This document shows, piece by piece, positions 4,346 to 35,545 of a stretch of 48,139 nucleotides of DNA. The notes beneath the pieces are model-generated. The model made no database searches. It was not told the DNA's origin and saw only the letters and a program-made list of their open reading frames with translations. The DNA comes from Alphaproteobacteria bacterium (lineage in GTDB: Bacteria; Pseudomonadota; Alphaproteobacteria; Reyranellales; Reyranellaceae). The first letter of the stretch is position 1; every line of letters starts with the position of its first letter. The translations under genes were made by a program, and so were the position numbers. The stretch spans positions 1 through 48,139 of the forward strand of contig CANJHI010000021.1 in assembly GCA_947474005.1 (NCBI GenBank), written 5' to 3'.

Positions 4346-5464
4346 ATGGCAACAGGACATCGCGGCGGACTCAGGACTGCCTTGTCGATGGCGCTCGCCC
4401 TGATACTGGCCACCGTCGCCCTGCCGGCGAGCGCCGCGACCTTCGTATATGTCGGCTGCACCGACAGCAACGAGATCCAGGTTCTGCGGCTCGATCCCAA
4501 GACAGGCGATCTTGCCGAGGTCGAAAAGGTCACGATCCCCGGCATCGTCAAGACGGCGGGCTCGACCCCGATGGCGATCAGCCCTGACAAGAAATTCCTG
4601 TTCGCAGCGACCCGCGGCGAGCCGATGGTGGCAGCGAGCTTCAGGATCGATCCCGCGACCGGCAGGCTCAGCCACGTGGCCAATGGTCCGCTCGACGGCA
4701 GCATGGCCTACATCACGACCGACCGCACCGGCCGCTACCTGCTCGCGGCCTCCTACCCCCACAACAAGGTCACGGTGAACCCGATCGCGCCGGATGGCAC
4801 GGTGCAGAAGCCCTCGCAGATCGTGCCGACCGAACCCAACGCGCACGCCATCCAGCCCGACGCCAGCAACCGCTTCGTGCTGGCGACCAGCCTGGGCGGC
4901 AACCTCGTCCGGCAGTTCCGCTTCGATCCGGCGACCGGAACATTGACGCCCAACGATCCCCCGGCGGAGGCGGTGAAAGGCACCGCCAACCCGGGCCCGC
5001 GCCACTTCGCCTTCCACCCGACCAACGGGCGCGTCTATTTGCTGAACGAGCTCGAAGCCTCGCTCGCCGTCTTCACCTATGATCCCAAGACCGGCACGCT
5101 GAAGGAGCAGCAGACGATCAGCGCACTGCCGGCCAAGGCGCCGGAGAAGATCTGGGCGGCCGACATCCACCTGACGCCCGATGGCAAATTCCTCTACGCC
5201 ACCGAACGGGGCACCAGCACGATCGCAGGCTTCAAGATCGATCCGGCGAACGGATCGCTCTCGCTCATCGAGCATACGGTGACCGAACAGCAGCCGCGCG
5301 GCTTCGCCATCGATTCGACCGGCCGCTATCTCTACGCGGTGGGCCAGCTCTCCGATTCGATGACGAGCTACGCCATCGATCCCGCCACCGGCAAGCTCAC
5401 CAAGCTGAAGCAATACAAGGTGGGCAAGAACCCGAACTGGGTCGAGATCGTCGACCTGCCCTGA
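4346..5464 (+). CDS. exported lactonase-family seven-bladed beta-propeller (Pgl-like)
   Basis: 372 residues. A Sec signal peptide occupies about residues 1-30, with cleavage after PASA. The rest is a series of propeller blades with repeated phrases such as DPKTGDL, DPATGRL, DPATGTL and DPANGSL, as in the cycloisomerase/6-phosphogluconolactonase (COG2706) family. Cytoplasmic Pgl acts in the pentose phosphate pathway. The signal peptide here places this protein in the periplasm, so a lactone or other sugar-derived substrate outside the cytoplasm is more likely. The ribosome site is gggaggggacc directly before the ATG. It sits between the TauD and amidohydrolase genes with short gaps and is probably co-transcribed. 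Confidence 0.8.
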   Translation: MATGHRGGLRTALSMALALILATVALPASAATFVYVGCTDSNEIQVLRLDPKTGDLAEVEKVTIPGIVKTAGSTPMAISPDKKFLFAATRGEPMVAASFRIDPATGRLSHVANGPLDGSMAYITTDRTGRYLLAASYPHNKVTVNPIAPDGTVQKPSQIVPTEPNAHAIQPDASNRFVLATSLGGNLVRQFRFDPATGTLTPNDPPAEAVKGTANPGPRHFAFHPTNGRVYLLNELEASLAVFTYDPKTGTLKEQQTISALPAKAPEKIWAADIHLTPDGKFLYATERGTSTIAGFKIDPANGSLSLIEHTVTEQQPRGFAIDSTGRYLYAVGQLSDSMTSYAIDPATGKLTKLKQYKVGKNPNWVEIVDLP

Positions 5465-6578: not shown

Positions 6579-7349
6579 TCAGTGCGGCGGCATCGGAATG
6601 AAGAGCGGCGGCGCGCCGGCGCTGCCAGGTGGTCTCAGATAGACATAGAACGGCGTCCGGCGCTCGACGACGTCGTCGCCCGGCTGCGCCCTTTGGCTCA
6701 CCAGCAGGTCGTCCTGGATGCGGACATGCATGTAGCCCGGCATGAGCTGGGCCCAGTTGGCGACGTCGGGCGTGAACAGGACGTCGTAGGCATAGTCCTT
6801 GGCAACAGTGACGACACCGGCGCCGCCTGGATCGGCGGGCTTTGACGGCACCTGCTGCCAGACCATGCCGGACTGCACATAGACCGCCACGGGATTGATC
6901 ATGACGTAGAGCGGGCCATCCGGGCTGGTGTTCTGCAGCGAGAGCGTCATGCGGAACGATTTGCCGTCGGCCGTGGCAACGATGCGCCTGAGCTCGACAT
7001 AGAGCGACCGCATCGCCGTATTCTCGAGTTCCAGCCGCGCCTGGCGCTGCTGCTTCACGAGATGGGACTGGTAGCGGCCGACGCCGGCATCGATGGCGAA
7101 GGCCAGCATCACCATCACAACGACACCCAGCAGCACCGGCGAATGCCAGAGGCCGGAAGAACGCCCGAGCTTCGAGGTGACCTCGGCCGGTGCCGGCATT
7201 TCCTTGCGCGGCGCCTCGCGCAACTGGTCGATCAGCGCGCCTCGCATTTCGGCCCGTCGCTTCGCCAGCCTCAACCCGGACTGCGCGGCCGCAAGCTGCC
7301 GCCGGAGATCGCGGATCAGCTCGTCCTTGTCGAGAGGTTCACCACTCAT
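6579..7349 (-). CDS. single-span membrane protein of the propeller/ABC operon, function unknown
   Basis: 256 residues. Residues 1-55 form a charged, probably coiled cytoplasmic segment (DELIRDLRRQLAAAQ). One membrane span covers about 69-90, followed by a periplasmic domain that reads as beta-rich (TLSLQNTSPDGPLYVMINP, TPFYVYLRPPG). No family is recognised. Its ATG overlaps the TGA of the ATPase gene by four bases, so it is translationally coupled to an ABC transporter and is the last gene of the operon that starts with the copper-type propeller. A role as a membrane-anchored periplasmic partner of the permease, in delivery or assembly, is inference from position only. Confidence 0.7.
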   Translation of the reverse strand: MSGEPLDKDELIRDLRRQLAAAQSGLRLAKRRAEMRGALIDQLREAPRKEMPAPAEVTSKLGRSSGLWHSPVLLGVVVMVMLAFAIDAGVGRYQSHLVKQQRQARLELENTAMRSLYVELRRIVATADGKSFRMTLSLQNTSPDGPLYVMINPVAVYVQSGMVWQQVPSKPADPGGAGVVTVAKDYAYDVLFTPDVANWAQLMPGYMHVRIQDDLLVSQRAQPGDDVVERRTPFYVYLRPPGSAGAPPLFIPMPPH

Positions 7350-8014
7350 GTGACGATCGCACCGTTGGCGATATGGACGATCTGCCCGGCCTGTTCGGCC
7401 AGGGCAAGATTGTGCGTGACCAGAATAAGCGTGGTCCCGATCTCGCGATTGACAGCCAGCAGCTCGTCCATGATCTCGATCTCGGTCTGCTCGTCGAGAT
7501 CGGAGGTCGGCTCGTCAGCCAGCAGGAGCGCGGGATCGTTGATCAACGCGCGCGCGATCGCGGCACGACGCTGTTCACCGGCGGAAATCTCCGAAGGGTA
7601 GGCGTCGAGATACCCGCCCAGCCCCATGCGATCGAGCAGGCTAGAAGCCTTGGCGTAGGTCGCGGCAGTCGACTGCCGCCGGCCCAGCATCGCCGGCAGG
7701 GCGACATTGTCGATCAGGCGCAGTGTCGGCAGCAGGCTCGCGAACTGGAAGACGTAGCCGATCCTTTCATTGCGGAAGGCCGCCAGCGCAGTCTCCGACA
7801 GGCGCCACACGTCGGTGCCGCCCACTTCCACCGTGCCCGCCGAGGGACGGCTGAGGCCGCCCACCATCGCCATCAAAGTCGACTTGCCGGAGCCGGAGCG
7901 ACCGATGATGGCGACGAACCGGCCCGCCGCCACATCGAGATCGATGCCGGCGACGGCGGTCACGAGGCCGCGCTCGGTCTTGTAGCTCTTACTGACCTGG
8001 CGGCATGCGAGCAT
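7346..8014 (-). CDS. LolD/MacB-type ABC transporter ATP-binding protein
   Basis: 222 residues, the usual length of a LolD/FtsE-type ATPase. The Walker A motif is GRSGSGKST at 38-46, followed by a Q-loop (YVFQFASLLPTL), the signature ISAGEQRRAAIARAL (Ala replaces the first Gly of LSGGQ), Walker B LLLADEPTSDLD and the switch histidine in LVTHNL. ATPases of this class power mechanotransmission through FtsX-fold permeases rather than import or export across the inner membrane. It lies 3 bp after the permease gene and overlaps the following membrane-protein gene. In this context it probably energises handling or maturation of the periplasmic propeller protein. Confidence 0.88.
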   Translation of the reverse strand: MLACRQVSKSYKTERGLVTAVAGIDLDVAAGRFVAIIGRSGSGKSTLMAMVGGLSRPSAGTVEVGGTDVWRLSETALAAFRNERIGYVFQFASLLPTLRLIDNVALPAMLGRRQSTAATYAKASSLLDRMGLGGYLDAYPSEISAGEQRRAAIARALINDPALLLADEPTSDLDEQTEIEIMDELLAVNREIGTTLILVTHNLALAEQAGQIVHIANGAIVT

Positions 8015-8017
8015 CGC

Positions 8018-9217
8018 TCAGCCCTCGCCGCGCACGAGGTCGTAGGCGTCGCGGCGGCTCGCCCGCCATGCCGGATAGAGCGCGCCCACGGCACCGATGG
8101 CCGCGGCCAGCACGATCGCCCCTACGGCGAAGGCCACCGTATGCGGCAGGTCGAGCCAGACGAACGGCACGCCGATATTGTCGAGGTAGTAGACCAGCGA
8201 GCGCTCGTAGAGACGCATCACCAGCACGCCCAGGGTCACGCCCAGCACGCCGCCGACGCCGGTGGCGATCACCGCCTCGACGACCATGACACCGATAAGC
8301 TGCGCACCGCGCGCGCCGATCGCTTTCAAGAGACCGAGTTCGGCCCGCCGTTCGGTGACGATCGCCGAGAACAGCACGCTCACCATGACCGCCATGCTGG
8401 CGAACATCAGCACCATCAAGGCGAGAATGCCTTTTAGCAGCGCTGCCAACCCCTGGCGGATGCCGGACAGCGAGGAGTCGCCGGTCACGACCTTGGCACC
8501 CTTGACCGCCGACAGGATGGCGAAGCGCGCCTGCAGCGCCGTGGCGCCGGGCGCCAGCTCGACGAGGAAGCCGGTGACCTTGCCCGGCGCGAGGACGGCG
8601 GGCCGTTGAGGCATGCTGGCGGCCAGCGCCTCCAGTGTGGCGAATGACATGAAGACGCCGCGCTCGTGGGTGCCGACGCCGGTGCGGCCGAGCTTGCCGT
8701 AGACGAGGTGCGGCTTGCCGAAGATGAGGAGCTGCGAGCCCAGCGGCGCATCGCGGCCGGCACCCAGGATCACGTCGCCGGCCCGTAGTCCGCGGCCGAG
8801 CTTTTCCTTGAGCCAGGGCTGGATCGTGAAGTCGAGCGCCGGATCGATGCCGATCAGGTCGACCAGCTCATGATGGCTACCGATGCCGGAATGCTCGACC
8901 CGCGCGATCTTCTGCGGTGCTGCTCGTGCCACGCTGGCGAGGCGCGCCTTGGCCAGGACATCGGCGTCGAGCACCAGATCGGTGGGCTCGACCGTGAGGA
9001 GTGCCGCGGTGATGTTGGTGAGCGCGCCTTCGGGCACCACCATCATGTCGGCGCCCAAGCGCGTGAAACCCACGGCCATGCTGTCGTCGATGCTGCGCAT
9101 CAGGGTGGCGCCGGTAAAGACGACCCCGCTGCCGATCGCCACCGCGGCGATCAGCAAGAGGCTGCGCGCCTTGCGGCGTCCGAGGTTCTGCAGCGCCAGG
9201 TTGGCGAGCAGCCTCAA
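8018..9217 (-). CDS. FtsX/MacB-like ABC transporter permease
   Basis: 399 residues with the four-helix FtsX layout. The first span is at about 19-40 and is followed by a periplasmic domain of about 200 residues (MacB_PCD-like, with DMMVVPEGAL near its start). Three C-terminal spans follow (ALMVLMFASMAVMVSVL; VVEAVIATGVGGVLGVTLG; VGAIVLAAAIGAVGALYPAW), ending with the YPAWRASRRDAYDLVRGE tail typical of this class. Only one permease gene is present, so a homodimer is expected. It lies 11 bp downstream of the propeller gene and 3 bp upstream of the ATPase. Such permeases release lipoproteins or remodel periplasmic partners. Its tight coupling to an exported metalloprotein is unusual. Confidence 0.85.
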   Translation of the reverse strand: MRLLANLALQNLGRRKARSLLLIAAVAIGSGVVFTGATLMRSIDDSMAVGFTRLGADMMVVPEGALTNITAALLTVEPTDLVLDADVLAKARLASVARAAPQKIARVEHSGIGSHHELVDLIGIDPALDFTIQPWLKEKLGRGLRAGDVILGAGRDAPLGSQLLIFGKPHLVYGKLGRTGVGTHERGVFMSFATLEALAASMPQRPAVLAPGKVTGFLVELAPGATALQARFAILSAVKGAKVVTGDSSLSGIRQGLAALLKGILALMVLMFASMAVMVSVLFSAIVTERRAELGLLKAIGARGAQLIGVMVVEAVIATGVGGVLGVTLGVLVMRLYERSLVYYLDNIGVPFVWLDLPHTVAFAVGAIVLAAAIGAVGALYPAWRASRRDAYDLVRGEG

Positions 9218-9228
9218 AGCGTGCCCAC

Positions 9229-11058
9229 TCAGAGCGTACAGGAGCGCGTGTGCTTCATGTGCTCCAGCTTGGTCGGAATGATCACGCAGTCATGATGCCC
9301 GCCGTTGCTCGGCAGGATGCCGACCAGCGTGTCGGTCGAGGTGTCGACGATCGCGATGCCGCTCGACTGACGCTGGAAGCCGCTGAACGGCGTCAGCACA
9401 TACTTGCCGTCGTAGGTGATTGCCGGTGTCTGCAGGTCGGGACCGATGCCCTGGATCTCCTTCAGGATCGTCCAGGTCTTGGTGTCGACCACCATGAGCC
9501 CGCTGTAGGCGGGCGACGGATGCAGGATGGACAGGTAGAGCTTCGAACTGTCCATCGAGAAGACCATGTGGAACGGATTCGGATACTTGCCGCGCCACAG
9601 CGGATCCTCGACATGGGCGATCTTGCGCCACTTGGTCGGATCCGGATCCTCGCAGCTGAAGATCGAGCAGTTGTTTTCCCGGAGGTTGTTCATCATCACC
9701 AGGAACTTGCCGTCGGGCGAGAAGCCGATCTCGTGGCCCGGCGAATGGATCTTGTCGAAGACGACCTTCCACGTGTCCTTGTCGATCTGCTCGACTGCAT
9801 ATTGGGCCTGCGAGTCCTTGTTGAACTGCAGGAAAGCCGCCGGATCGAAATTCTTCTCAGGGTCGAGGATGCAGATGCCGCCGCACAGACGCACGACGGT
9901 GGCGGCCCAGCGGCCCTCGGGATGCCAGATCGTGCCGTCGGCACCGGTGAGCGTGAGCGGCGCGTCGCCCGGCAGCGAGCCCTCCTCGACGAACAGCTCG
10001 CCCATGGGCACCATTTCCCAGTCGATCTTGTTGCCCTTGGTGCCGCGGTAGTCGTAGAGGCCGGTCGTGGTGTCGGGATAGATCTTCTTGATGGTGAGCG
10101 TGCCGCCCTTGATCCAGGCATCGCGCAGGTCCGGCACGTTGGGCGCCCAGTCGAACTTGAGCGCCGCCTTCACTTTCGAGGTCGTACGGTCGAAGCAGGC
10201 GGCGATGTCCTTCTGGCCGTCGGTGACGAAGTAGGATTGCGCGTCCTTCGGGTTGACCGTGACGTGGACGCCGAGCCCGAGGCCAGTGGTCTCAGAGACG
10301 TTCTCGACCATCTGCATCTGCGTGCCGTCGAAGCGGACGCGATAGATGTTTGTGCCGGGCGCCGGTTCCGTGATGGCGGTGGGGATGCCGTAGATCAGCG
10401 AGTTCTTGACGCCCTGCGTCGAGTTGACGAATTCGAAGCCGTGATACGGATCGGAACTCGGGAAGGCGCAGAGGTGATGGCTGATCGGACTGAAATCGCC
10501 GTAGTTCCAGTACCAGATCGAGGCCAGCACGCGATTTGAATTGAGATCGAGCGCGTAGGTGCCGCCACCGAGCTTGGTCGGCAGCAAGGCGATCCACTGG
10601 CCAAGGCTGCGTCCCTTGATGTCGGCTCTCGAATCGACGATCTCGCGGGTAATGTGTGATTGTTGCGGGCCCGCACCGCTGGCCTGAAAGATGCCGGTGT
10701 CCGACGAGCCGCCGCCCAGCGCGTTGTAGCCAAGGACGGCCGCTTCGGCGACGCCCGCGGTGCCGACGGCGACGTTCAGCATCGTGCGCCGACTCATCCG
10801 GGTCTTGCGCGCCGGGACCGCGGCCTCAGCGGCCTTGGCTTTGAGGGTCGCCTCTTCATGCTTGGCGACCAGGTACGTCTTGAATTCCTCGCGGTCCTTC
10901 TCCAGCACTTCGGCGTTGCGCCTGAGGAACTCCTCGATCGAGCCCTTGCTCGCAGGAAGGTTCGGCGCCGCTTCGGCGGCGATCGGAGTGATGATCGGCG
11001 TTGCGTTCACATTGGGGGAAGTTCTCGTGGCAGGCGTTTCTCTGGTGGGTTCAACCAT
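9229..11058 (-). CDS. exported NosZ N-domain/thiocyanate-dehydrogenase-like copper beta-propeller
   Basis: 609 residues from the ATG at 11058, chosen because GAGGGAG lies 8 bp upstream; a GTG at 11067 would add three residues. Residues 1-87 are a hydrophilic, helical extension. A twin-arginine motif SRRTMLNVAVG follows at 89-99, so a Tat signal is likely. The remainder reads as a beta-propeller. My hand alignment to the propeller domain of nitrous oxide reductase places histidines at six of the seven CuZ ligand positions: H194, H195 (ISHHLCAF), H265 (GVHVTVNP), H442 (PGHEIGFSPDGK), H497 (NPFHMVFS) and H589 (GGHHDCVI). The seventh position appears to be D541 (IGPDLQ). There is no C-terminal CuA cupredoxin domain, as in thiocyanate dehydrogenase. 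The substrate is unknown. It heads an operon with an ABC transporter. Confidence 0.6.
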   Translation of the reverse strand: MVEPTRETPATRTSPNVNATPIITPIAAEAAPNLPASKGSIEEFLRRNAEVLEKDREEFKTYLVAKHEEATLKAKAAEAAVPARKTRMSRRTMLNVAVGTAGVAEAAVLGYNALGGGSSDTGIFQASGAGPQQSHITREIVDSRADIKGRSLGQWIALLPTKLGGGTYALDLNSNRVLASIWYWNYGDFSPISHHLCAFPSSDPYHGFEFVNSTQGVKNSLIYGIPTAITEPAPGTNIYRVRFDGTQMQMVENVSETTGLGLGVHVTVNPKDAQSYFVTDGQKDIAACFDRTTSKVKAALKFDWAPNVPDLRDAWIKGGTLTIKKIYPDTTTGLYDYRGTKGNKIDWEMVPMGELFVEEGSLPGDAPLTLTGADGTIWHPEGRWAATVVRLCGGICILDPEKNFDPAAFLQFNKDSQAQYAVEQIDKDTWKVVFDKIHSPGHEIGFSPDGKFLVMMNNLRENNCSIFSCEDPDPTKWRKIAHVEDPLWRGKYPNPFHMVFSMDSSKLYLSILHPSPAYSGLMVVDTKTWTILKEIQGIGPDLQTPAITYDGKYVLTPFSGFQRQSSGIAIVDTSTDTLVGILPSNGGHHDCVIIPTKLEHMKHTRSCTL

Positions 11059-11178: not shown

Positions 11179-11823
11179 ATGGACTACGCCGTCATCATCA
11201 GCGCCATCGTGCTCGGCCTTTCCGTCCTGGCGACGGCAGCGAAATTCCTCGACTGGTTCATCCATACCGATCCGCAGACGATGGTGCGAGTCAGCCGCTG
11301 GATGCTGTTGCTTCTGGTCATGGCCTGCATTCCACTTGTCGTCTGGATGATCGTTGACGGCCGATGGTCGGCGGCCATGCTGATCGGAGCCGGCATGCTG
11401 GCCGTTCCGACCTTCCTGAAATGGCGAGCACTCCTTGCGCCGTTGCGCGGCGTGCTCGGCCGATTCAGGTCCAAGGTGCCGCCCTTCGACATGAAGGAAT
11501 GGCCTGCCGACATGGCGGGCGACCCTGAGACCGTGCGGCGCGCCGCCGCCATCCTCGAAGCCTATGTGAACCGGCCGGCGCCGCAGGATTTCAGGCTCGC
11601 CTCCCGGCACGACGGCGCCGTCATGTCCAGGGCGGAAGCGCTCGACGTGTTGGGCCTCGGCGAGAATGCTGACGAGGCGGCGATCCATGCCGCGCACGAG
11701 CGCCTTGCACGGCTGGTCCATCCCGACCATGCGGGTGCGACCTATCTTGCAAGAAAGGTCGACCAGGCGCGGGACACGCTGCTGCCTCCTCCGCGCGAGT
11801 GGCGCCGCCTGTCGAACGGCTAA
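11179..11823 (+). CDS. membrane-anchored J-domain (DnaJ/TIM14-like) protein
   Basis: 214 residues. Three hydrophobic segments lie at about 5-25, 41-59 and 63-80, followed by a linker and a C-terminal J-domain at about 150-202. The J-domain contains the diagnostic HPD tripeptide at 181-183 (ARLVHPDHAG), preceded by ALDVLGLGENADEAAI. J-domains stimulate the ATPase of Hsp70 (DnaK), and a membrane J-protein recruits Hsp70 to the inner membrane, as TIM14/Pam18 does in mitochondria. The gene diverges from the copper-type propeller gene with 120 bp between them. Whether it helps export or folding of that protein is inference. It is 24 bp upstream of a metallo-beta-lactamase-fold gene. Confidence 0.8.
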   Translation: MDYAVIISAIVLGLSVLATAAKFLDWFIHTDPQTMVRVSRWMLLLLVMACIPLVVWMIVDGRWSAAMLIGAGMLAVPTFLKWRALLAPLRGVLGRFRSKVPPFDMKEWPADMAGDPETVRRAAAILEAYVNRPAPQDFRLASRHDGAVMSRAEALDVLGLGENADEAAIHAAHERLARLVHPDHAGATYLARKVDQARDTLLPPPREWRRLSNG

Positions 11824-25323: not shown

Positions 25324-25373
25324 CATGAAATCGACCCAGTGATCCACCCCGTCCTCCCCACCGTATGCCGACC

Positions 25374-26780
25374 ATGTCGGCATCGATCGTCTGGTTTCGC
25401 AACGACCTCCGCCTGGCGGACAATCCCGCGCTCATCGCCGCGCTCGGCTCCGGCCGGCCCGTGGTGCCGGTCTATGTACTGGACGCGGAAACCGAGGGCG
25501 TGCGGGCTCCGGGGGCGGCCTCGCGCTGGTGGCTGCACCACAGCCTCGCGTCGCTCGACGCCTCGCTGCGCGCGCTGGGCTCGCGGCTGGTCCTGCGGCG
25601 CGGCCCTGCCGAGGCCGCGATCACCGAGCTGGCGGCGGCGTGCGACGCCCGGTCGGTCTACTGGAACCGCGTCTACGACCAGGGTACGCGCGAGCGCGAC
25701 GCGCGGCTGAAACAATCCTTCACCGCCCGCGGCGTGATCGCCGAGAGCCACAAGGCCAACCTGCTGGTCGAGCCGTGGGAAGTGGCGACCCAGGCCGGCC
25801 AGCCGTTCAAGGTCTTCACCTCGTTCTGGCGCGCCTGCCGCGCCCTCAAGTCGCCCACGGCGCCCCTGCCGGCACCCAAATTGCTGCCAGCGCCGCGCGC
25901 CTGGCCCGACAGCGACAAGCTCTCGGACTGGCGACTGCTGCCGACCGCGCCGGATTGGGCCGGCGGCATGCGCGCGAGCTGGACGCCGGGCGAAGCGGCG
26001 GCGGCGCGGCGGCTCACGGATTTCCTCGACGATGCGCTGGCCCGCTACCGCCAGGCGCGCGACCTGCCCGCAGTCGAGGGCACCTCGCGCCTGTCGCCGC
26101 ATCTTGCCTTCGGCGAGATCAGCCCGCGCCAGATCTGGCGGGCGGCCACCGGCCTCGGCCATTCCGCCGCGGTCGAGAAATTCCTGGCCGAGCTGGGCTG
26201 GCGCGAATTCGCCTACAATCTCCTGTTCCATTTCGGCGACCTGGCGCAGCGCAACTTCCGGCCCGAGTTCGACGTCTTTCCGTGGCAGGAAGCCGGCGAC
26301 GCGCTGGAAGCCTGGCGGCGCGGCCGCACCGGCTATCCGATCGTCGATGCCGGCATGCGCGAATTGTGGACGACCGGCTGGATGCACAATCGCGTGCGCA
26401 TGATCACGGCGTCGTTCCTCACCAAGGATCTGTTGATCGACTGGCGCGCGGGCGAGCGCTGGTTCTGGGACACGCTGGTCGACGCCGATCCGGCCAATAA
26501 CGCCACCGGCTGGCAATGGGTGGCGGGCTCCGGCGCCGATGCCGCCCCCTATTTCCGCATCTTCAATCCCGTGCTGCAGGGCGAGAAGTTCGATCCCAGC
26601 GGCGACTATGTGCGCCGCTGGATCCCCGAGCTCGCGAGCCTGCCGGCCGACACCATCCACCGGCCGTGGACCGCCAAGCAGCCGCTGCCGCCGGAGATCT
26701 ATCCCGCCCGCCTCGTCGACCACGCCGCCGCCCGCGAGCGCGCGCTCGAGGCTTTCCGCACGCTCAGGCGAAGCGCTTAG
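25374..26780 (+). CDS. phrB: deoxyribodipyrimidine photolyase (cryptochrome/photolyase family)
   Basis: 468 residues. The N-terminal antenna-binding domain begins MSASIVWFRNDLRLADNPAL. The C-terminal FAD-binding domain carries the class signatures TTGWMHNRVRM, WFWDTLVDADPANNATGWQW and GSGADAAPYFRIFNP at about 363-399. The enzyme uses blue light and reduced FAD to split cyclobutane pyrimidine dimers. ATG codons at 25365 and 25374 are both possible starts, and no ribosome site is evident for either. The gene is bracketed by two near-identical palindromes and precedes a lipid-modification operon that resembles a singlet-oxygen-induced set in Rhodobacter. Confidence 0.9.
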   Translation: MSASIVWFRNDLRLADNPALIAALGSGRPVVPVYVLDAETEGVRAPGAASRWWLHHSLASLDASLRALGSRLVLRRGPAEAAITELAAACDARSVYWNRVYDQGTRERDARLKQSFTARGVIAESHKANLLVEPWEVATQAGQPFKVFTSFWRACRALKSPTAPLPAPKLLPAPRAWPDSDKLSDWRLLPTAPDWAGGMRASWTPGEAAAARRLTDFLDDALARYRQARDLPAVEGTSRLSPHLAFGEISPRQIWRAATGLGHSAAVEKFLAELGWREFAYNLLFHFGDLAQRNFRPEFDVFPWQEAGDALEAWRRGRTGYPIVDAGMRELWTTGWMHNRVRMITASFLTKDLLIDWRAGERWFWDTLVDADPANNATGWQWVAGSGADAAPYFRIFNPVLQGEKFDPSGDYVRRWIPELASLPADTIHRPWTAKQPLPPEIYPARLVDHAAARERALEAFRTLRRSA

Positions 26781-26793
26781 CTCATATTCATAT

Positions 26794-26850
26794 GGACCGC
26801 GGGCCTCCGGCCTGCGTCATGATCATGAGCGGGCCGGAGGCCCGCGGTCC
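26794..26850. repeat. palindrome, copy 2 (downstream of photolyase gene)
   Basis: Arms of 22 bp (26794-26815 and 26829-26850) pair with one mismatch around a 13-base spacer (gtcatgatcatga). The sequence is nearly identical to the copy at 25265-25323. Together the two copies flank the photolyase gene. No T-run follows, so a simple intrinsic terminator is unlikely. Confidence 0.75.
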
Positions 26851-26923
26851 GGAAGAGCATGAACCATAAATCCACTCGGGCTCACCCGACGTATCACTGA
26901 GGAACGTCAGGGAGTTGTCGCGC

Positions 26924-28303
26924 ATGAAGATCGCCGTCGTTGGTGCCGGTGTTGCCGGGCTGGGTGCTGCCTGGCTGCTGAGCCGCAAGCACGAGGTTGT
27001 GATCTACGAGCGCGAGGATCGGTTCGGCGGGCATTCCTGCACGGTCGACGCGCCAGTCCCCGGCGGCACGCGCGCGGTCGACGTCGGCTTCATCGTGTTC
27101 AACGAGCGCAACTATCCCAACCTGGTCGCCCTGCTCGACCATCTGGGCGTGCCGACCGAGAACTCCGACATGTCGTTCGCCGTCAGCCTCGACGAGGGAC
27201 GGTTCGAATACGGCAGCTCGTTCACGGGCTACTTCGGCCAGCGGCGCAACGTCGTGCGGCCATCTTTCCTGCGCATGACCCACGACATCCTGCGCTTCAA
27301 CCGCCTCGCACCACGGCTGCTCGAGGAGTGCGAGAACCTCGACTTCACCATCGGCAATTTCATCGACGACGCGGGCTTCAGCCGAGCTTTCCGCGACCGC
27401 TACCTGGTGCCGATGGCGTCGTGCATCTGGTCGACGCCGATGGGCCGCATGCTCGACTATCCGGCGCAGAGCTTCGTACGCTTTTTCAACAACCACGGGC
27501 TTCTCACCATCGGCCCCCAGCTGCAGTGGCGCACGGTGAGTGGCGGCAGCCGATCCTATGTCGAGCGCATCGCCACGCCGCTGCGCGCGCGGGCGCGGCT
27601 GGCGACACCGGCACGCGCGATCCGCCGTGGGCCGCCCGGCGCCGGGTTGGGTGTAGAAGTGCGCGACGCTTCGGGCCACTGGGACCGCTTCGACAAGATC
27701 GTACTGGCCTGCCATGCCGACCAGGCGCTGGCGCTGCTGGAGGATGCCGACGCACCCGAACGCGACTTGCTCGGCTGCTTCGCCTACTCCTCGAACGAGG
27801 TCTGGCTGCACGGCGATTTGTCCCTGATGCCGAAGCGGCGCAGTGTCTGGTCGAGTTGGAACTACGTGGCTGACCGCAGCTCCGACGATATGAGGGCTGG
27901 GGAGCAGGCCGTGAGCGTGACCTACTGGATGAACCGGCTGCAAAACCTGCCGGACGAGACACCGCTGTTCGTCTCGGTCAATCCCGGCCGCACGCCGCTG
28001 CCGTCCGCGGCCTACGCGCGCTTCGCCTTCGACCATCCGATGTACGACGCCGCCGCGATCCGGGCGCAGCGCGGCCTGCATGCGATCCAGGGCGTGCGCG
28101 ACACCTATTTCTGCGGCAGCTACTGCGGCTACGGCTTCCACGAGGATGCGCTGTCGGCCGGCCTCGACGTCGCCGAACAGTTGGATGTTCGTCGCCCCTG
28201 GCCGCGACCCGACGAGCACCGCCGCATCGGCGACCCGCCGCGCGTCGTCGCCGACCGGCCGATGATCGAGCCGATCCCCCTGCCGGTCGCGGCGCGGACG
28301 TGA
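26924..28303 (+). CDS. FAD-dependent amine-oxidase-like oxidoreductase of the lipid cluster
   Basis: 459 residues. The dinucleotide-binding motif VGAGVAGLGAAW is at 6-17 and is followed by YEREDRFGGHS. The C-terminal FAD-contact segment is GSYCGYGFHEDALSAGLDVA. This subfamily (NAD/FAD-binding, COG2907) is nearly always next to DUF1365 and a cyclopropane-synthase homologue. In Rhodobacter sphaeroides the homologous genes belong to the RpoE/ChrR singlet-oxygen response and are connected with modified, including furan, fatty acids. The ATG at 26924 has a GGGAG site. Its TGA overlaps the GTG start proposed for the DUF1365 gene. The exact reaction is not assigned. Confidence 0.82.
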   Translation: MKIAVVGAGVAGLGAAWLLSRKHEVVIYEREDRFGGHSCTVDAPVPGGTRAVDVGFIVFNERNYPNLVALLDHLGVPTENSDMSFAVSLDEGRFEYGSSFTGYFGQRRNVVRPSFLRMTHDILRFNRLAPRLLEECENLDFTIGNFIDDAGFSRAFRDRYLVPMASCIWSTPMGRMLDYPAQSFVRFFNNHGLLTIGPQLQWRTVSGGSRSYVERIATPLRARARLATPARAIRRGPPGAGLGVEVRDASGHWDRFDKIVLACHADQALALLEDADAPERDLLGCFAYSSNEVWLHGDLSLMPKRRSVWSSWNYVADRSSDDMRAGEQAVSVTYWMNRLQNLPDETPLFVSVNPGRTPLPSAAYARFAFDHPMYDAAAIRAQRGLHAIQGVRDTYFCGSYCGYGFHEDALSAGLDVAEQLDVRRPWPRPDEHRRIGDPPRVVADRPMIEPIPLPVAART

Positions 28304-29184
28304 TTGCTCTCGCCCCCCTCCGCCCCCTTGCGGGGGCACCTCCCCCGATGACGGGGGAGGAGTTTGTTTCTCCTCCCCCGCTTGCGGGGGAGGTGGCCGA
28401 AGGCCGGAGGGGGGCGGCCTCAGCCGCACACACCCTCATCGCCGCCACCGTCGTGCACCGTCGGCTACGACCGCGTGAACACGCCTTTCGTTACCGCGTC
28501 GCCTATCTCTGTCTCGATCTCGGTGCGCTTGATGCGGCATCAGGGCGCTGGCTGAAACTCGACGGACCCGGCCTCGTCTCCTTCCGGCGCGCCGATCACG
28601 GCGGGCGCGACGGCGGCGACCTCCAGTCATGGCTGCGGGAAATCCTCGTGGAGCACGGCGTCGGCGCGGTCTGTGACGGCGAGGTTACGCTGATGACCAT
28701 GCCGCGCATGCTGGGCTACGTGTTCAATCCGGTGAGTTTCTGGTTCTGCCGCGACCGGGCGGGTGCGCTGCGGGCGGTGCTGTGCGCGGTCAACAACACC
28801 TTCGGCGAAAGCCATTGTTACCTCGTCCATCACGACGATCAGCGCCCCATCGAACCAGAGGCCTGGCTGGGCGGCCGCAAGGTCTTCCACGTCTCGCCGT
28901 TCCTGCCGGTCGAGGGAGATTACCGGTTCCGGTTCCGGCTGGACGGAAAAATCGCCCATGTCGACGTCAACTATCACGACGCCCAGGGGTTGATGCTGGC
29001 GACGTCGGTCGGCGGCCGGCGCGAGCCGCTGACGGACGGTGCCGTGCTGCGCCGCTTCCTGGGGAACCCGACCATGACCCTGGGCGTCGTGCTGAGAATC
29101 CACTGGCAGGCCTTGCAACTCTGGCGAAAGCGGGCGAGATTTTATCGCAAGCCCGTCCCGCCTTCGCAGCTCGTGAGCCGCTGA
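28300..29184 (+). CDS. DUF1365 family protein with repeat-derived N-terminus
   Basis: 294 residues if translation starts at the GTG at 28300 that overlaps the preceding stop (GTGA). The conserved DUF1365 part begins near residue 52 (VHRRLRPREHAFRYRVAYL) and continues with MPRMLGYVFNPVSFWFCRD, NNTFGESHCYLV and NPTMTLGVVLRIHWQAL. Residues of about 5-39 are encoded by a palindromic element (28311-28416) and are Pro/Gly-rich low-complexity. An alternative GTG start at 28453 would give a normal family N-terminus without the repeat. DUF1365 proteins accompany cyclopropane-synthase-like methyltransferases in lipid modification. No signal peptide is seen. Confidence 0.8.
   Translation: MIALAPLRPLAGAPPPMTGEEFVSPPPLAGEVAEGRRGAASAAHTLIAATVVHRRLRPREHAFRYRVAYLCLDLGALDAASGRWLKLDGPGLVSFRRADHGGRDGGDLQSWLREILVEHGVGAVCDGEVTLMTMPRMLGYVFNPVSFWFCRDRAGALRAVLCAVNNTFGESHCYLVHHDDQRPIEPEAWLGGRKVFHVSPFLPVEGDYRFRFRLDGKIAHVDVNYHDAQGLMLATSVGGRREPLTDGAVLRRFLGNPTMTLGVVLRIHWQALQLWRKRARFYRKPVPPSQLVSR
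28311..28416. repeat. palindromic element at the 5' end of the DUF1365 gene
   Basis: Perfect 12-bp outer arms (CGCCCCCCTCCG at 28311-28322 and its complement at 28405-28416) enclose three C-run/G-run hairpins. The architecture is the same as that of the element at 43864-43966. It lies directly after the preceding stop and reads through in the DUF1365 frame. Confidence 0.7.
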
Positions 29185-29188
29185 CCTC

Positions 29189-30361
29189 ATGTCATTCGCC
29201 GCCCGCTTCGTCCTCAAGTCTCTCGCCCGCCTCTCCGTTGGCCGGCTGACCGTACGGCTTCCGGACGGCACGACGTGCTACTTTGGCCCCGAGGGTGCGG
29301 AACGCCAGGCTGTGATCGAGATCAAGGACTGGCGCTTCTTCCGCCGCGTACTGCTCGACGGCGACATCGGCTTCGCCGAGTCCTACATGGATGGTCTCTG
29401 TGACTCGCCCGACCTGCCGGAGCTCCTGTCGCTGCTCACCGACAACGAAAGGTCCCTGGGGCGCGTCACGCGCACCAACGCCTTTCACAACCTCCTGCTG
29501 AAGCTGCTGCACCGGCGGCACGACAATTCGCGCGCAGGTTCCAAGCGCAACATCCATGCCCATTACGATCTCGGCAACGAGTTCTACGGCCTGTGGCTCG
29601 ATCCGACGATGACCTATTCGTCCGCGCTCTACGAGGGCGCGGAAGGCCAGGCGCTCGAGGCGGCGCAGACCGCCAAGTACGAGCGCATCCTGAACCAGCT
29701 CGGCGCCCGGCAGGGCGACAGCATCCTCGAGATCGGCTGCGGCTGGGGCGGCTTCGCGGAAACGGCGGCGCGGCGCGGCATGCGGGTGACCGGCGTCACC
29801 ATCTCGCGCGAGCAGCTCGAATACGCCCAGGCCCGCCTGCAGCGCGCCGGCCTCGCCGACCGCGTCGATCTGCAGTTCCGCGACTACCGGGACATCCAGG
29901 GCAAATACGACCATATCGTCTCGATCGAGATGATCGAGGCCGTGGGCGAGCGCTACTGGCCGGATTACTTTGCCGCCCTGAAACGCCATTCGGTCCCAGG
30001 GGGCTCGGCGATCGTCCAGGCGATCGTGATCGCCGACGACCTGTTCGAGGGCTATCGCCGTCATCCAGACTTCATACAGACCTATGTCTTTCCCGGCGGC
30101 ATGCTGCTGTCGCCGTCCAGTCTGCGCGAGCAATGCAGACGGGCCGGGCTCAAGGTCGCCGAGGCCTATAGTTTCGGACTGGACTATGCGCGCACCCTGG
30201 AGACCTGGCTCGGCCGTTTCGACCGGGTCGCCGACCAGGTGTCCAAGCTCGGATTCGACGAGCGTTTTCGCCGGATGTGGCGTTATTACCTCGCCTATTG
30301 TGCCGCAGGCTTCAAGACGCGCCGGACGGACGTATTGCAGGCACACTTCAAGCATATATAA
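29189..30361 (+). CDS. cyclopropane-fatty-acyl-phospholipid synthase family SAM methyltransferase
   Basis: 390 residues. Family landmarks are HAHYDLGNEFYGLWLDPTM, the SAM-binding ILEIGCGWGGFAETAARRG, VSIEMIEAVGERYWPDYF and TYVFPGGMLLSP. The enzyme transfers a methylene or methyl group from S-adenosylmethionine to a double bond of a membrane phospholipid acyl chain. Products in this subfamily may be cyclopropane, methylated or furan-precursor acyl chains. The gene starts 4 bp after the DUF1365 stop and is in one operon with the FAD oxidoreductase. The operon context favours a photooxidative-stress lipid enzyme over housekeeping cfa, so no symbol is given. Confidence 0.87.
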   Translation: MSFAARFVLKSLARLSVGRLTVRLPDGTTCYFGPEGAERQAVIEIKDWRFFRRVLLDGDIGFAESYMDGLCDSPDLPELLSLLTDNERSLGRVTRTNAFHNLLLKLLHRRHDNSRAGSKRNIHAHYDLGNEFYGLWLDPTMTYSSALYEGAEGQALEAAQTAKYERILNQLGARQGDSILEIGCGWGGFAETAARRGMRVTGVTISREQLEYAQARLQRAGLADRVDLQFRDYRDIQGKYDHIVSIEMIEAVGERYWPDYFAALKRHSVPGGSAIVQAIVIADDLFEGYRRHPDFIQTYVFPGGMLLSPSSLREQCRRAGLKVAEAYSFGLDYARTLETWLGRFDRVADQVSKLGFDERFRRMWRYYLAYCAAGFKTRRTDVLQAHFKHI

Positions 30362-31786: not shown

Positions 31787-32872
31787 CTACGCCGCGAGAA
31801 AGTCCAGTCGCTGTGGCTGGCGCAGGCCGAAGTCGCGCTGCAGGCCCCAGCAGCCTTGCGCCACCGACGCGAAGACGCTGCGGAAATCGACGGTGTGCTT
31901 GAGGTCGCCGTCCTGCAGATCGGCGAGCGACGGGTAGACACCGTAGAGGCCGCCCTTCACGCCGCCACCCAGGATGAACTGCGGCGCCGCCGAGCCGTGA
32001 TCGGTGCCGCCGCTGGCGTTGGGCCGCACGCGCCGGCCGAATTCCGAATAGGTCATCACCAGCACGTCGTCCCACCGGCCGGCGGCCATGAGGTTCTTGC
32101 GCAGAAGCGCGAGATTTGCCGCCAGCACGCCCAGCAGCCGCTCGTGCGGCGGCGTCTGATTGGCGTGGGTATCGAAGCCGCCCATCGCCACCTTGATGGC
32201 GAGCACCGGCACGCGTGCCGCGACAAGGCGCGTCGCGAGATCGAGCTGGCGGCCGAGACCGGTTTCCTGGCCGTAGGCGAAGGCCGGCTGCGGCGTCTCG
32301 TGCAGTCTGTCGCGCAAACCCACCGCGGCGGCATTGACCTCGTGGCGCACGGCCAGGAGATGACGCAGCGCCGGATTACCGTCGTCGGTCCTGTCGGGCA
32401 TGGTCTTCATCGCCTGCGCCTGGCGCAGGAAGTTCTCGGCGTCCTGCATCACGATCGTGCGCAGTGACGGGCCGGTCAGCGGCACCGAGTTGGTGTCGAC
32501 CACGATGCCGTCGACGCCGGCACCTTTGGGAACCACCACACCCTGGAAAGCCTGGGCAATCCAACCTTCGCTCAGCGTCTGGCTCGACGCCGACGCGGTG
32601 TCCCAGATCTCGATGGAACGGAAGTGCGAGCGGTTCTGGTAGGGATAGCCGACGCCTTGGAGGATCGCGAGATCTCCGGCTTTCCACGAGTCCATCAGCG
32701 GCTCGAGCTTGTCGTGCAGCCCGACGCGCTCGTCGAGCTGCAGCGTGCGCTCGCGCGGCAGCGCGATATCTCCGCGCAGTTCGCGATACTTCGGATCGGC
32801 GTACGGGATGACGGTGTTCAGCCCGTCATTGCCGCCCCTGAGTTCGACCAGGATGAGGATGCGTGATGCCAT
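31787..32872 (-). CDS. DUF1501 family protein lacking its own signal peptide
   Basis: 361 residues. It starts directly with ILILVELRGGNDGLNTVIPY, the core strand of DUF1501, and continues with LLEGVGYPYQ-like AILQGVGYPYQNRSHFRS, VKVAMGGFDTHANQ-like AIKVAMGGFDTHANQTPPH and MTYSEFGRRVRPNASGGTDHG. These belong to the alkaline-phosphatase/sulfatase-like fold. Most DUF1501 proteins carry a Tat signal. Here a strong ribosome site (tgaggaggcgatc) fixes the start at 32872 and leaves no room for one. The DUF1800 partner gene 10 bp upstream does have a Tat signal. Function is unknown. Confidence 0.85.
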   Translation of the reverse strand: MASRILILVELRGGNDGLNTVIPYADPKYRELRGDIALPRERTLQLDERVGLHDKLEPLMDSWKAGDLAILQGVGYPYQNRSHFRSIEIWDTASASSQTLSEGWIAQAFQGVVVPKGAGVDGIVVDTNSVPLTGPSLRTIVMQDAENFLRQAQAMKTMPDRTDDGNPALRHLLAVRHEVNAAAVGLRDRLHETPQPAFAYGQETGLGRQLDLATRLVAARVPVLAIKVAMGGFDTHANQTPPHERLLGVLAANLALLRKNLMAAGRWDDVLVMTYSEFGRRVRPNASGGTDHGSAAPQFILGGGVKGGLYGVYPSLADLQDGDLKHTVDFRSVFASVAQGCWGLQRDFGLRQPQRLDFLAA

Positions 32873-32882
32873 GATCGCCTCC

Positions 32883-34403
32883 TCACTTCAGCTGGTAGGC
32901 GGGATCGAGAAGTGCTGCGGCAACCACCGCGCCCGGCACGCCGCGGGTCTCGACCGCATCGATCGGGGCACGCGGCAGCAGCGTCAGCATGAGCGTCGTG
33001 GCGTCGACACCGATCAGGGTCGGACCGAGCCGGGCCTCGGAGCCGGAATTGCGCAGGCTGCGGCCTTCGACCGGCCGGGGCTCCATCATCTGCTGGGTAT
33101 CTTCCATGGCGGGCTGCCCCTGGCGGCGGTCCATGCGGCGCCCGCCCATGCCCTCCATCTGCGACACGGTCGTCGCTTCGACGATACGGCGCAGGATCTG
33201 CTGGCGCTGCAGCAGCGTGTAGGCGGTGATCCAGCTCTCGCCGCCGGCCCAGCCCTTGACGTTGGGCGGATTGAACAGGCTCTGGCCGAGGCCCCCCATC
33301 ATGCGGGCAAGCTGGGTCTTTTCCGGCACCGGCAGCCCCAGCACGCGCACGGTGCCGACGATCAGGTCGACCGGCGACTTGATCAGCGCGGCACGGTTGG
33401 CGGGATCGCGAAACGACGGCGACAGGAACAACGCCCGCATCAGCGGCTTGATCTCGTAGCCGCTCGCGCGGAACACCGCGGCCAGCCGGCCGATCTCGAC
33501 GCGATCGGGCTTCAGCGACACGAACTCACGCCACAGCTTCTCGACGATCGTCTCGGCCGTGCGCGGATGATTGAGCAGGATGGCGATGATTTCGTCGCCG
33601 CCGAAGCGGCCCGTCTGGCCGAGAAAGGTCTTCTCGCCGCCGTCGTGGGCCTGCTCGCGGAAGACGAACTGCCCGGTCGCCCGGTCGATCGACCCGCCGG
33701 TGAAGGCGCGCGCCGCGGCCTTGATGTCGCCTTCGGTATAATGCCCCTCGCCGAGCGTAAACAGCTCCAGCAGCTCGCGGGCAAAGTTCTCGTTGGGCTG
33801 GCGCGCCACGTTGCGCACGCCGTCGAGGTAGAGAAGCATCGCCGGATCGCGCGGCACCGCTTTCAGCAAGGCTGCGAAGTTGCCGAGCGCGCTCTGCCGG
33901 AACATCTCGTTCTGCTGGTACAGTGAGCCGGGATAGTAGGTCTTCGTCAGCGATGACGTGAAGTGGTTGTGCCAGAACAGCACCATGTGCTCGACCAGCG
34001 GCTGGTCGGTCGCGACCATCTCCTCGATCCACCAGTTGCGCAGCTGGCGGCTCTGTTCCTGCAAGGGCGGCTGGACCTGCACGGCCTTGCCGTCGCCGGT
34101 CGTCTTGGCCATCGCCTGCTGCTTCTGGCGGAGCGCTCCCAGCCCGTCATTGACCCACGCCGGCGCGACCGTCGCCGCCTTCGGCTGGAAGGCCGCCAAC
34201 AGCTTGTCGACGGCGCCAGCGTAATCGAGCGCCTCGAGGGCACGGATCTCGGCAGGTGTCGGCCCGAAGCCCGCCCGCGAGAGGAGATGCCGCGCCTCGT
34301 CGAAGCCCATCGACGAGGTCGCCCGTGCCGTGCGCGACAGGCCGCCGCTGACCGCGAGAGCCGCTGCACCGGTAACGAAGACGCGCCTGTCGAGATGCAC
34401 CAT
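32883..34403 (-). CDS. Tat-exported DUF1800 family protein
   Basis: 506 residues. The N-terminus MVHLDRRVFVTGAAALAVSG is a twin-arginine signal with cleavage near TARATSS. The body shows the DUF1800 landmarks ARHLLSRAGFGPTPAEI, MVLFWHNHFTSS, LYLDGVRNVARQPNENFARELLELFTLGEGHY and NPPNVKGWAGGESWI. The ribosome site gaggag lies 9 bp upstream. DUF1800/DUF1501 pairs are widespread and have been proposed to act as a periplasmic complex, but the activity is unknown. It lies in an operon with an ECF sigma factor, an anti-sigma factor and a Spy-like protein. Confidence 0.87.
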   Translation of the reverse strand: MVHLDRRVFVTGAAALAVSGGLSRTARATSSMGFDEARHLLSRAGFGPTPAEIRALEALDYAGAVDKLLAAFQPKAATVAPAWVNDGLGALRQKQQAMAKTTGDGKAVQVQPPLQEQSRQLRNWWIEEMVATDQPLVEHMVLFWHNHFTSSLTKTYYPGSLYQQNEMFRQSALGNFAALLKAVPRDPAMLLYLDGVRNVARQPNENFARELLELFTLGEGHYTEGDIKAAARAFTGGSIDRATGQFVFREQAHDGGEKTFLGQTGRFGGDEIIAILLNHPRTAETIVEKLWREFVSLKPDRVEIGRLAAVFRASGYEIKPLMRALFLSPSFRDPANRAALIKSPVDLIVGTVRVLGLPVPEKTQLARMMGGLGQSLFNPPNVKGWAGGESWITAYTLLQRQQILRRIVEATTVSQMEGMGGRRMDRRQGQPAMEDTQQMMEPRPVEGRSLRNSGSEARLGPTLIGVDATTLMLTLLPRAPIDAVETRGVPGAVVAAALLDPAYQLK

Positions 34404-34417
34404 TCGAGGTCACTCCT

Positions 34418-34948
34418 CTACTGCGGCGGTCGGCTCTGTCCGGGTACTGCCGGCCCTGCCGGAGCACGCGGCGGCGGCGGCGCGCCGGCGAAGCGCTCGG
34501 CCAGCAGCACGTGTAGCCGCTCGCGCTGGTCGGGGCGCAGCAGCGGCTCTAGTTCCGCCACCGCATGCAGGCTTTCCTTCCACTGGTCCGCCCGCAGGCG
34601 GGTGATCTGATCGATCAGCCCGTCGATCCGCATCATGTCCATCTGCGGACGCGCCAGTTCCGCCGCCGTCTGATCGCGCACTTTCTGGATTTCGCGGAAG
34701 CGCTCCCGCCGCGACGCGACATAGCGGTCCAACTGGCCGCGTATGGTCGCGCGCTGGGCGTCATCGACGCCGAGATCGATCATCAGCATCTCGACAGGGC
34801 TCGGTCGGGTGCCCGGCGGCGGCGGCGGCGGCATGTGCCGCTCGAAGGCCGGCGGCGAGATCCAGCTGCTGTAGACGAACCCCACCAGCACGAACGTGTT
34901 CAGCAGGAGGGACAGAGCGAGCACTGCCTGCATCAGGCGCGAGCCCAT
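34418..34948 (-). CDS. periplasmic Spy/CnrX-like (heavy-metal sensor-like) protein
   Basis: 176 residues. One N-terminal span (AVLALSLLLNTFVLVGFVY) anchors or exports the protein. A Pro-rich linker (MPPPPPPGTRPSP) precedes a helical region (DLGVDDAQRATIRGQLDRYVASRRERFREI) whose paired long helices and LRPDQRERL motif resemble the LTxxQ-type repeats of Spy/CpxP/CnrX proteins. It may be a periplasmic chaperone or stress sensor. The ATG at 34948 follows the anti-sigma stop by one base; a GTG at 34963 is the alternative. Its place between anti-sigma factor and DUF1800 suggests a role in the signal or quality control of that system. Confidence 0.65.
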   Translation of the reverse strand: MGSRLMQAVLALSLLLNTFVLVGFVYSSWISPPAFERHMPPPPPPGTRPSPVEMLMIDLGVDDAQRATIRGQLDRYVASRRERFREIQKVRDQTAAELARPQMDMMRIDGLIDQITRLRADQWKESLHAVAELEPLLRPDQRERLHVLLAERFAGAPPPPRAPAGPAVPGQSRPPQ

Positions 34949-34949
34949 G

Positions 34950-35480
34950 TCAGATCCCGTCACTGACGACGAAGAGGTCGCTCAGCTCACTCGATGTGGT
35001 GGCGGTGGAACGCGCCGTGCTTTGAGCGTCCGAACCATATCTCTGCTGGGCAAACGAATCGCCCAGGCCGCCGCCCATCACGAAGCCAGCGCCGGCTACC
35101 ACGATCACCATGGCGATCATCGCCGCGCGCTGCAGGGCGAAGAGCGGCCCGGACGGGAACAGGCGGCCCAACCATCCACCAGCGCGTCCGGTTTCGCGCT
35201 CTGCGTCGAAACCGATCAGCGCCTGGGCCCGCACGGCCAGCCGGGCCGGTGGCACCGGCAGCGGCTTGCCCAATATATCCGTGAGGTCGAGGGCGGCGCG
35301 CCGCAGCTCGGGGTCGGCGGCAACCGCCGCCTCGATCCGCGCGGTGGCGGCCTCGGAAAGGCGGCCTTCCAGCCAGGCGGCGAAATCGAGATCCGAGACT
35401 GCCGCGGGGGCGACAGCCCGCTCCGCAGCAAGGCTCCGCCACAACTCCTTGTCCGTCCGGGATTTGCGTTCAGTGCCCAT
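34950..35480 (-). CDS. membrane-spanning anti-sigma factor
   Basis: 176 residues. The cytoplasmic part contains DFAAWLEGRLSEAATARIEA (33-52), which reads like the helical sigma-binding domain of anti-sigma factors, though without an HxxxCxxC zinc motif. One membrane span lies at about 116-136 (AAMIAMVIVVAGAGFVMGGG) and a short periplasmic tail follows. It lies 65 bp after the ECF sigma gene. The ribosome site ggagaggg precedes the ATG at 35480. It most likely holds the sigma factor inactive at the membrane until an envelope signal arrives. The assignment rests on topology and context. Confidence 0.72.
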   Translation of the reverse strand: MGTERKSRTDKELWRSLAAERAVAPAAVSDLDFAAWLEGRLSEAATARIEAAVAADPELRRAALDLTDILGKPLPVPPARLAVRAQALIGFDAERETGRAGGWLGRLFPSGPLFALQRAAMIAMVIVVAGAGFVMGGGLGDSFAQQRYGSDAQSTARSTATTSSELSDLFVVSDGI

Positions 35481-35545
35481 TGCACCCTCTCCTGCCCTAA
35501 TTACGTCAGAAAGACCCGTTCCATCCCCAGTTTCAGGTTCCGATT

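Follow-up and report, generated by a model that had tools for sequence, protein, structure and literature searches.

Which enzyme does the propeller gene on a 48,139-nucleotide contig of an alphaproteobacterium of the family Reyranellaceae encode, and why does this gene head an operon with ATP-binding cassette (ABC) transporter genes of its own? The contig (CANJHI010000021.1 of assembly GCA_947474005.1, hereafter the window) belongs, as C21, to a genome (G000) of 5.68 Mb that is 93.8% complete. Four of its minus-strand genes are separated by 11 bp, by 3 bp and then by a 4-bp overlap: a propeller protein of 609 amino acids with its ATG at 11058 (9229..11058), an FtsX/MacB-type permease of 399 amino acids (8018..9217), a LolD-like ATPase of 222 amino acids (7346..8014) and a single-span membrane protein (SSM, 6579..7349) with the C-terminal end IPMPPH. 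A first-pass annotation, whose gene order and spacing were reproduced on recomputation, had compared the propeller with nitrous oxide reductase (NosZ) and thiocyanate dehydrogenase (TcDH), and had proposed an undescribed copper oxidoreductase with a dedicated cofactor-assembly machine. The answer favoured here, with about even confidence, is that the gene probably encodes a TcDH-family copper oxidoreductase of the periplasm, of a type with glutamine in place of an active-site histidine, and that a dedicated FtsX-LolD-SSM complex may serve it.

Identity of the propeller protein

Sequence comparison places the 609-residue protein among the homologues of TcDH (EC 1.8.2.7), an enzyme with three copper ions that oxidises thiocyanate to cyanate and sulfur. 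Nine PDB sequences match it with E < 1e-100, four named thiocyanate dehydrogenase and five named as proteins with a twin-arginine translocation (Tat) signal, 8yu5 and 8q9x among them at E ~1e-155. Homology to TcDH spans residues 151-608, and the match to the propeller of the Thioalkalivibrio paradoxus enzyme (5f75, E 7.5e-148) runs over the mature protein (residues 70-608), with 48% identity across 456 columns. Of the 13 TcDH active-site residues listed in the figure 4 legend of PMC6504805, 12 are kept (Lys162, His194, His195, Gln215, His265, Glu348, Asp374, His442, His497, His589, Asp590 and Arg605), and the full published set is broken at His482, which is replaced by Gln543. The protein shares these 12 cavity residues and a twin-arginine motif (SRRTML, near residue 90) with the T. 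paradoxus enzyme and 8q9x, but differs from the former in having glutamine for His482, Leu-His for Trp452-Trp453, with His513 at the place of Trp453, and a long N-terminal extension (about 60 additional residues) ahead of the motif; the Tat signal models of Pfam and NCBIfam gave no match at E 0.1. Its closest named relatives (91-94% identity) come from Reyranella and Rhodospirillaceae metagenome-assembled genomes (MAGs).

The first-pass annotation had also credited the protein with a histidine set like that of the CuZ site. Clustered histidines of a TcDH-type propeller are present, but they are the TcDH set with His482 exchanged for glutamine, not CuZ. No relation to NosZ could be seen in the sequence: no model of NosZ or of lactonase-type NosZ (L-NosZ) matched the protein at E 0.1, and the best PDB matches are the TcDH and Tat-signal proteins. 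By Pfam, no nos, cytochrome or thiocyanate family occurs in the 36 genes scanned of the 44 predicted in the window, in agreement with the annotation's remark that none is adjacent. It is highly improbable that the protein is NosZ or a lactonase-type relative, a reading that rests on the general likeness of copper propellers. Only a neighbouring gene (4346-5464, plus strand), whose product is a lactonase-like propeller with seven blades (PF10282, 3.1e-85), touched the model of the lactonase-type nitrous-oxide reductase, and its weak match (56.9 bits, cut-off 700) lies far below the threshold.

Glutamine-type and histidine-type proteins

Position 482 was compared in 342 aligned rows, consisting of the window protein, 5f75, 272 database proteins, 67 open reading frames (ORFs) from loci (counting the copy in the genome itself as well as close kin) and a locus from an alphaproteobacterium of another family. 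Glutamine is found in 262 rows, histidine in 76 and a gap in four, and the remaining 12 cavity residues are intact in 335 rows (259 with glutamine and all 76 with histidine). Other near-fixed differences separate the two: Trp453 of the histidine type is replaced in the glutamine type by His (224 of 262) or Tyr, Trp452 by Leu, Gln382 by Glu, Thr503 by Gln or Leu, and Ile/Val542 by His or Asn. A loose twin-arginine pattern was seen in 224 of 262 glutamine-type and 51 of 76 histidine-type rows. Judged from this alignment, glutamine at 482 is a family mark that sets two core types apart, a split that was not found in the literature (open-licence papers, here and below).

In an unrooted tree of 84 rows built without column 482, one change between the types suffices; in a tree of 67 rows rooted on five distant histidine-type proteins, the state takes two changes, and a single glutamine clade is not rejected (p-AU, from the approximately unbiased test, 0.0995; 41 rows). 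The five distant homologues, from Gammaproteobacteria (L083-L087), have all 13 cavity residues, with 35-39% identity to 5f75 and 35-36% to the window protein in the two that were measured. Because all five have alanine at 453, Trp453 is not common to all histidine types. Upstream of L083 are genes for a resistance-nodulation-division (RND) pump, a GAF histidine kinase and a sigma54 activator, an arrangement that passages of PMC6504805 describe for the TcDH locus of Thiohalobacter and Guyparkeria, which oxidise thiocyanate. These likely kin of the Thiohalobacter and Guyparkeria enzymes belong to the same propeller family as the window protein and have the other 12 cavity residues in common with it, but they are histidine-type and no SSM was found in their genomes.

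Does the glutamine type still oxidise thiocyanate? Tentatively, it may be an ordinary TcDH in which glutamine at 482 is tolerated, in a cell that uses or detoxifies thiocyanate: 12 of 13 cavity residues are kept, 16 among 120 proteins listed carry the Joint Genome Institute (JGI) name thiocyanate desulfurase, and two host MAGs are named after thiocyanate-reactor samples (SCN18, L024; SCNpilot, L032). However, typed TcDH proteins with a tie to thiocyanate (T. paradoxus, 8q9x and the L083-like locus that resembles those of Thiohalobacter and Guyparkeria) are all histidine-type, in a set that leaves out the proteins of Afipia and strain THI201, which are also tied to thiocyanate in passages of PMC8061750. 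An equally tentative alternative is that the glutamine type oxidises a different small substrate in a cavity rewired by the loss of His482 and, in most members, by the gain of histidine at the place of Trp453. The several near-fixed differences that accompany position 482 favour this alternative, whereas the unchanged state of the other 12 cavity residues, and the alanine at 453 in distant histidine types, do not. The odds are roughly even between thiocyanate and a different small compound. PDB entries 8yu5 and 8q9x, the latter presumably the Pelomicrobium enzyme, differ among 455 aligned residues solely in glutamine versus histidine at position 482, so this exchange (presumably the variant H447Q) has already been studied by someone.

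The ABC transporter and the single-span membrane protein

The assignment of the permease to the FtsX/MacB superfamily and of the ATPase to a LolD-like family was upheld: the permease matches PF02687 (3.9e-14; 53.2 bits, cut-off 25.5) and MacB_PCD (PF12704, 5.6e-9; 37 bits, cut-off 27), and the ATPase matches ABC_tran (PF00005, 3.4e-30). A simple hydropathy scan of the permease gives one N-terminal and three C-terminal spans with the MacB_PCD-like domain between them. These are features of the LolCDE, MacB and FtsEX systems, but the pair of the window differs from them in occurring with a propeller and SSM, and in scoring below the curated cut-offs for LolC/E (LolCE 29.3 bits against 362.45), MacB, LolD (TIGR02211, 223 bits against 307.75) and FtsE; it is not a LolCDE system by these models.

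SSM consists of an N-terminal part, one span at residues 72-90 and a C-terminal domain of about 160 residues. Met253-Pro-Pro-His256, His208 and Tyr206 (a Tyr-x-His motif) are invariant across 34 aligned rows, one from the window and 33 drawn from 58 loci. No relatives were found in Pfam or NCBIfam (E 0.1) or in the PDB. The C-terminal domain is predicted to be periplasmic because in fused proteins it follows the cytoplasmic ATPase with one span between, and its Met/His tail would fit Cu(I). Neither the fusion of ATPase and SSM nor an SSM domain with the Met-Pro-Pro-His tail was found in the literature.

In Thioalkalivibrio, as passages of PMC5328954 and PMC5744179 describe, two pairs of permease and ATPase genes stand after the TcDH gene, together with a gene for a protein that has a single N-terminal span; all of these genes are induced on thiocyanate, and the permease combines one N-terminal helix with three C-terminal ones. 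The pairing of TcDH with ABC genes is therefore not new, and the first-pass proposal of an undescribed copper oxidoreductase with its own assembly machine is supported in part: what was not found in the literature is the glutamine-type split, the fusion and the SSM domain. The operon of the window resembles that of Thioalkalivibrio in having a propeller gene and then ABC genes and a protein described as single-span, and in the 1+3 span pattern of the permease. It differs in having one permease and one ATPase, and copCD, fccAB, tatA and a sigma54 regulator were not among the 36 window genes scanned.

Conservation of the operon across genomes

Linkage of the genes was followed in 68 loci, a sample that was drawn with query-derived patterns and favours close kin. 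FtsX, LolD and SSM occur together in 57 of them, at coordinates directly after the propeller gene, and FtsX is found at full score in 59. The gene-set linkage is not due to chance, for it recurs in 57 of 68 loci in this query-drawn sample. Hosts of the linked loci are Alphaproteobacteria, Melainabacteria/Obscuribacterales and a Planctomycete; neither the spread of the propeller-ABC unit over several phyla nor the naming of the permease as FtsX/MacB was found in the literature. ATPase and SSM form one ORF in 14 of the 57 loci (from Melainabacteria/Obscuribacterales, other cyanobacterium-named MAGs, a Planctomycete and two unclassified MAGs), and in 40 of the 44 unfused loci the two genes overlap by 4 bp. 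Two loci (L015 and L027) show FtsX and then the contig end, in four others (L047 and L066, and L003 and L055, both of which include the start of FtsX) the contig ends in or soon after the propeller gene, and L068 has FtsX-LolD-SSM with the propeller only as a stub.

Co-occurrence in whole genomes gave a similar picture. Among 65 Reyranella genomes, the propeller is present in 42 and SSM in 41; 39 have both and 21 neither, three genomes (71-75% complete) have the propeller only, and two (60% and 95% complete) have SSM only. In 385 genomes of Alphaproteobacteria, SSM was found in three, the identical three that have the propeller, all of one genus (Reyranella-group). A check of 19 genomes, 13 of them hosts of counted loci, found SSM in 14 of 14 with the glutamine type and in none of the five with the distant histidine type; FtsX-LolD-SSM was likewise absent from the stretches read around the five distant histidine-type genes. 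A search of 398 genomes of the phylum for the propeller returned two matches, the window's own genome and G608, an alphaproteobacterium of another family with a glutamine-type propeller, FtsX and a single LolD/SSM ORF. A search of Gammaproteobacteria returned six of 369, namely the glutamine-type seed G805 and the five distant histidine-type genomes. Neighbourhoods of the histidine type were also sought in plasmids, which gave two Methylocella tundrae records only, nearer to the type of the window, and in viral contigs, which gave none; the loci sampled include no core histidine-type ones such as that of Thioalkalivibrio.

The 304-kb M. tundrae plasmid NZ_LR536451.1 (L074) carries the operon, annotated there as hypothetical protein, ABC permease, ABC ATPase and hypothetical protein, and the M. 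tundrae copy in L038 is glutamine-type. Propeller genes are split in two ORFs in a Rhodospirillales MAG (L045, 3954-5649) and in Methylotetracoccus oryzae (L060, 9959-11608), through either sequencing error or decay.

Metabolic setting

Two markers, soxB and cyanase, were sought in the genome of the window and neither was found, which may speak against an ordinary TcDH; the abstract of PMC6504805 describes Thioalkalivibrio TcDH hosts as likewise lacking cyanase. In Reyranella, soxB is present in 4 of 42 genomes with the propeller (3 above the cut-off) and in 15 of 23 without it (14 above), by a model whose score in 6 of 14 controls stayed short of the cut-off, and this rarity of soxB with the gene also argues against an ordinary TcDH. 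Cyanase is present in 35 of 42 Reyranella genomes with the propeller and in 14 of 23 without it (p 0.07; the co-occurrence p-values ignore relatedness), a count on the side of an ordinary TcDH that is not used here as support. The cyanase search missed its E. coli control, although strain K-12 has cynS, so that cyanase absences are soft, including those behind its presence in only 2 of 16 other glutamine-type genomes. The range of hosts, among them Reyranella, methanotrophs and Obscuribacterales, few of them with cyanase, is in keeping with a different substrate. The marker pattern speaks against energy-yielding thiocyanate oxidation with Sox, but not against use of thiocyanate as a nitrogen source or its detoxification.

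A possible role for the ABC complex

The ABC machine and SSM probably help to build the enzyme or to keep it working. The preferred role, at roughly balanced confidence, is that SSM and FtsX assemble the copper site, because NosZ is a periplasmic copper propeller that likewise has an ABC partner, NosDFY, and because SSM tracks the enzyme closely. This analogy is one of general likeness: no sequence similarity between the two systems was detected, the operon has no NosD, and the NosDFY permease is of a different class. In the proposed mechanism, Tat probably exports the enzyme in folded form, and ATP hydrolysis at LolD would move the periplasmic parts of an FtsX dimer and SSM; at the membrane these parts would work on the enzyme, most likely by delivering or arranging copper in the propeller cavity. 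SSM, with its invariant tail and Tyr-x-His motif, may be a membrane-held copper donor or a docking piece. The matured enzyme would draw electrons from a small substrate (thiocyanate, a like pseudohalide or a C-S compound) and hand them to a soluble cytochrome c.

It is instead possible, if somewhat doubtful, that the ABC part is a transporter, for uptake of copper or for export of sulfur or another product. Permeases of the FtsX/MacB class, with the 1+3 spans seen here, are generally known to move periplasmic partners rather than ions, which argues against transport. Passages of PMC5328954 and PMC5744179 propose putative copper uptake for the Thioalkalivibrio genes, although PMC5744179, in the same passages, found no copper-transport features or metal-binding domains in them.

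Several observations weigh against a dedicated copper-assembly complex. Four Methylococcaceae loci (two of them placed in this family presumptively) have a glutamine-type propeller without FtsX-LolD-SSM nearby, within 10 kb downstream in three and 2.2 kb in L064, and SSM was not found in these four genomes; since their glutamine-type enzymes do without it, the ABC machine is not needed everywhere. The survey of homologue neighbourhoods suggested in the first-pass annotation thus confirmed the ABC linkage in most glutamine-type loci, but not in these four nor in the five distant histidine-type homologues. The conserved columns of the FtsX family contain no His, Met or Cys. SSM was tried as a known copper chaperone and rejected, with no Pfam or PDB match worth naming. 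Within the window, a fragment resembling HlyD/CusB (1-774), at a distance of about 6 kb, is the sole copper-type gene seen.

Other genes of the window

A candidate fifth partner is encoded divergently from the propeller gene (11179..11823, plus strand), a membrane protein whose C-terminal domain is J-like (weak DnaJ match, E 0.017). A gene for such a protein, with an HPD motif, adjoins the propeller gene divergently in 39 Reyranella-group loci and the window's own genome, and co-directionally in six of seven Rhizobiales loci; it is not beside the propeller in other groups, and the motif reads DPD in L044, L046 and L066. The lead came from a neighbourhood clustering full of antisense ORFs, which was used solely for this gene. 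The J-like protein is a possible fifth partner in Alphaproteobacteria.

Elsewhere in the window, photolyase, amine oxidase, DUF1365 and cyclopropane synthase-like genes stand in a row (25365-30361, plus strand), a set familiar from light-stress regulons, and DUF1501 and DUF1800 proteins are encoded with a Metal_resist protein and a sigma-70-family factor (31787-36091, minus strand).

Significance

On the sequences compared, what appears new is the glutamine-type split, the ATPase-SSM fusion and the SSM domain, and what was known already is the pairing of TcDH with ABC genes. The most far-reaching proposal is unlikely as a whole; it holds that the glutamine type, with its cavity rewired, is a copper oxidoreductase in its own right that acts on a substrate other than thiocyanate, and that a second ATP-driven assembly machine (FtsX-LolD and a new copper-donor domain in the membrane), of independent origin and unlike NosDFY, matures it. 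Glutamine-type proteins outnumber the histidine type in this query-biased sample, and many of them go by the JGI name thiocyanate desulfurase, so that thiocyanate oxidation may be overcounted in metagenomes. The natural exchange of histidine for glutamine in a putative tri-copper cavity, with the same single exchange in a deposited structure, offers a route to the role of that residue. The link of FtsX-LolD-SSM with the enzyme, including the ATPase-SSM fusion, would turn the copper-uptake remark made for Thioalkalivibrio into a testable case of copper-site assembly by an FtsX-type machine.

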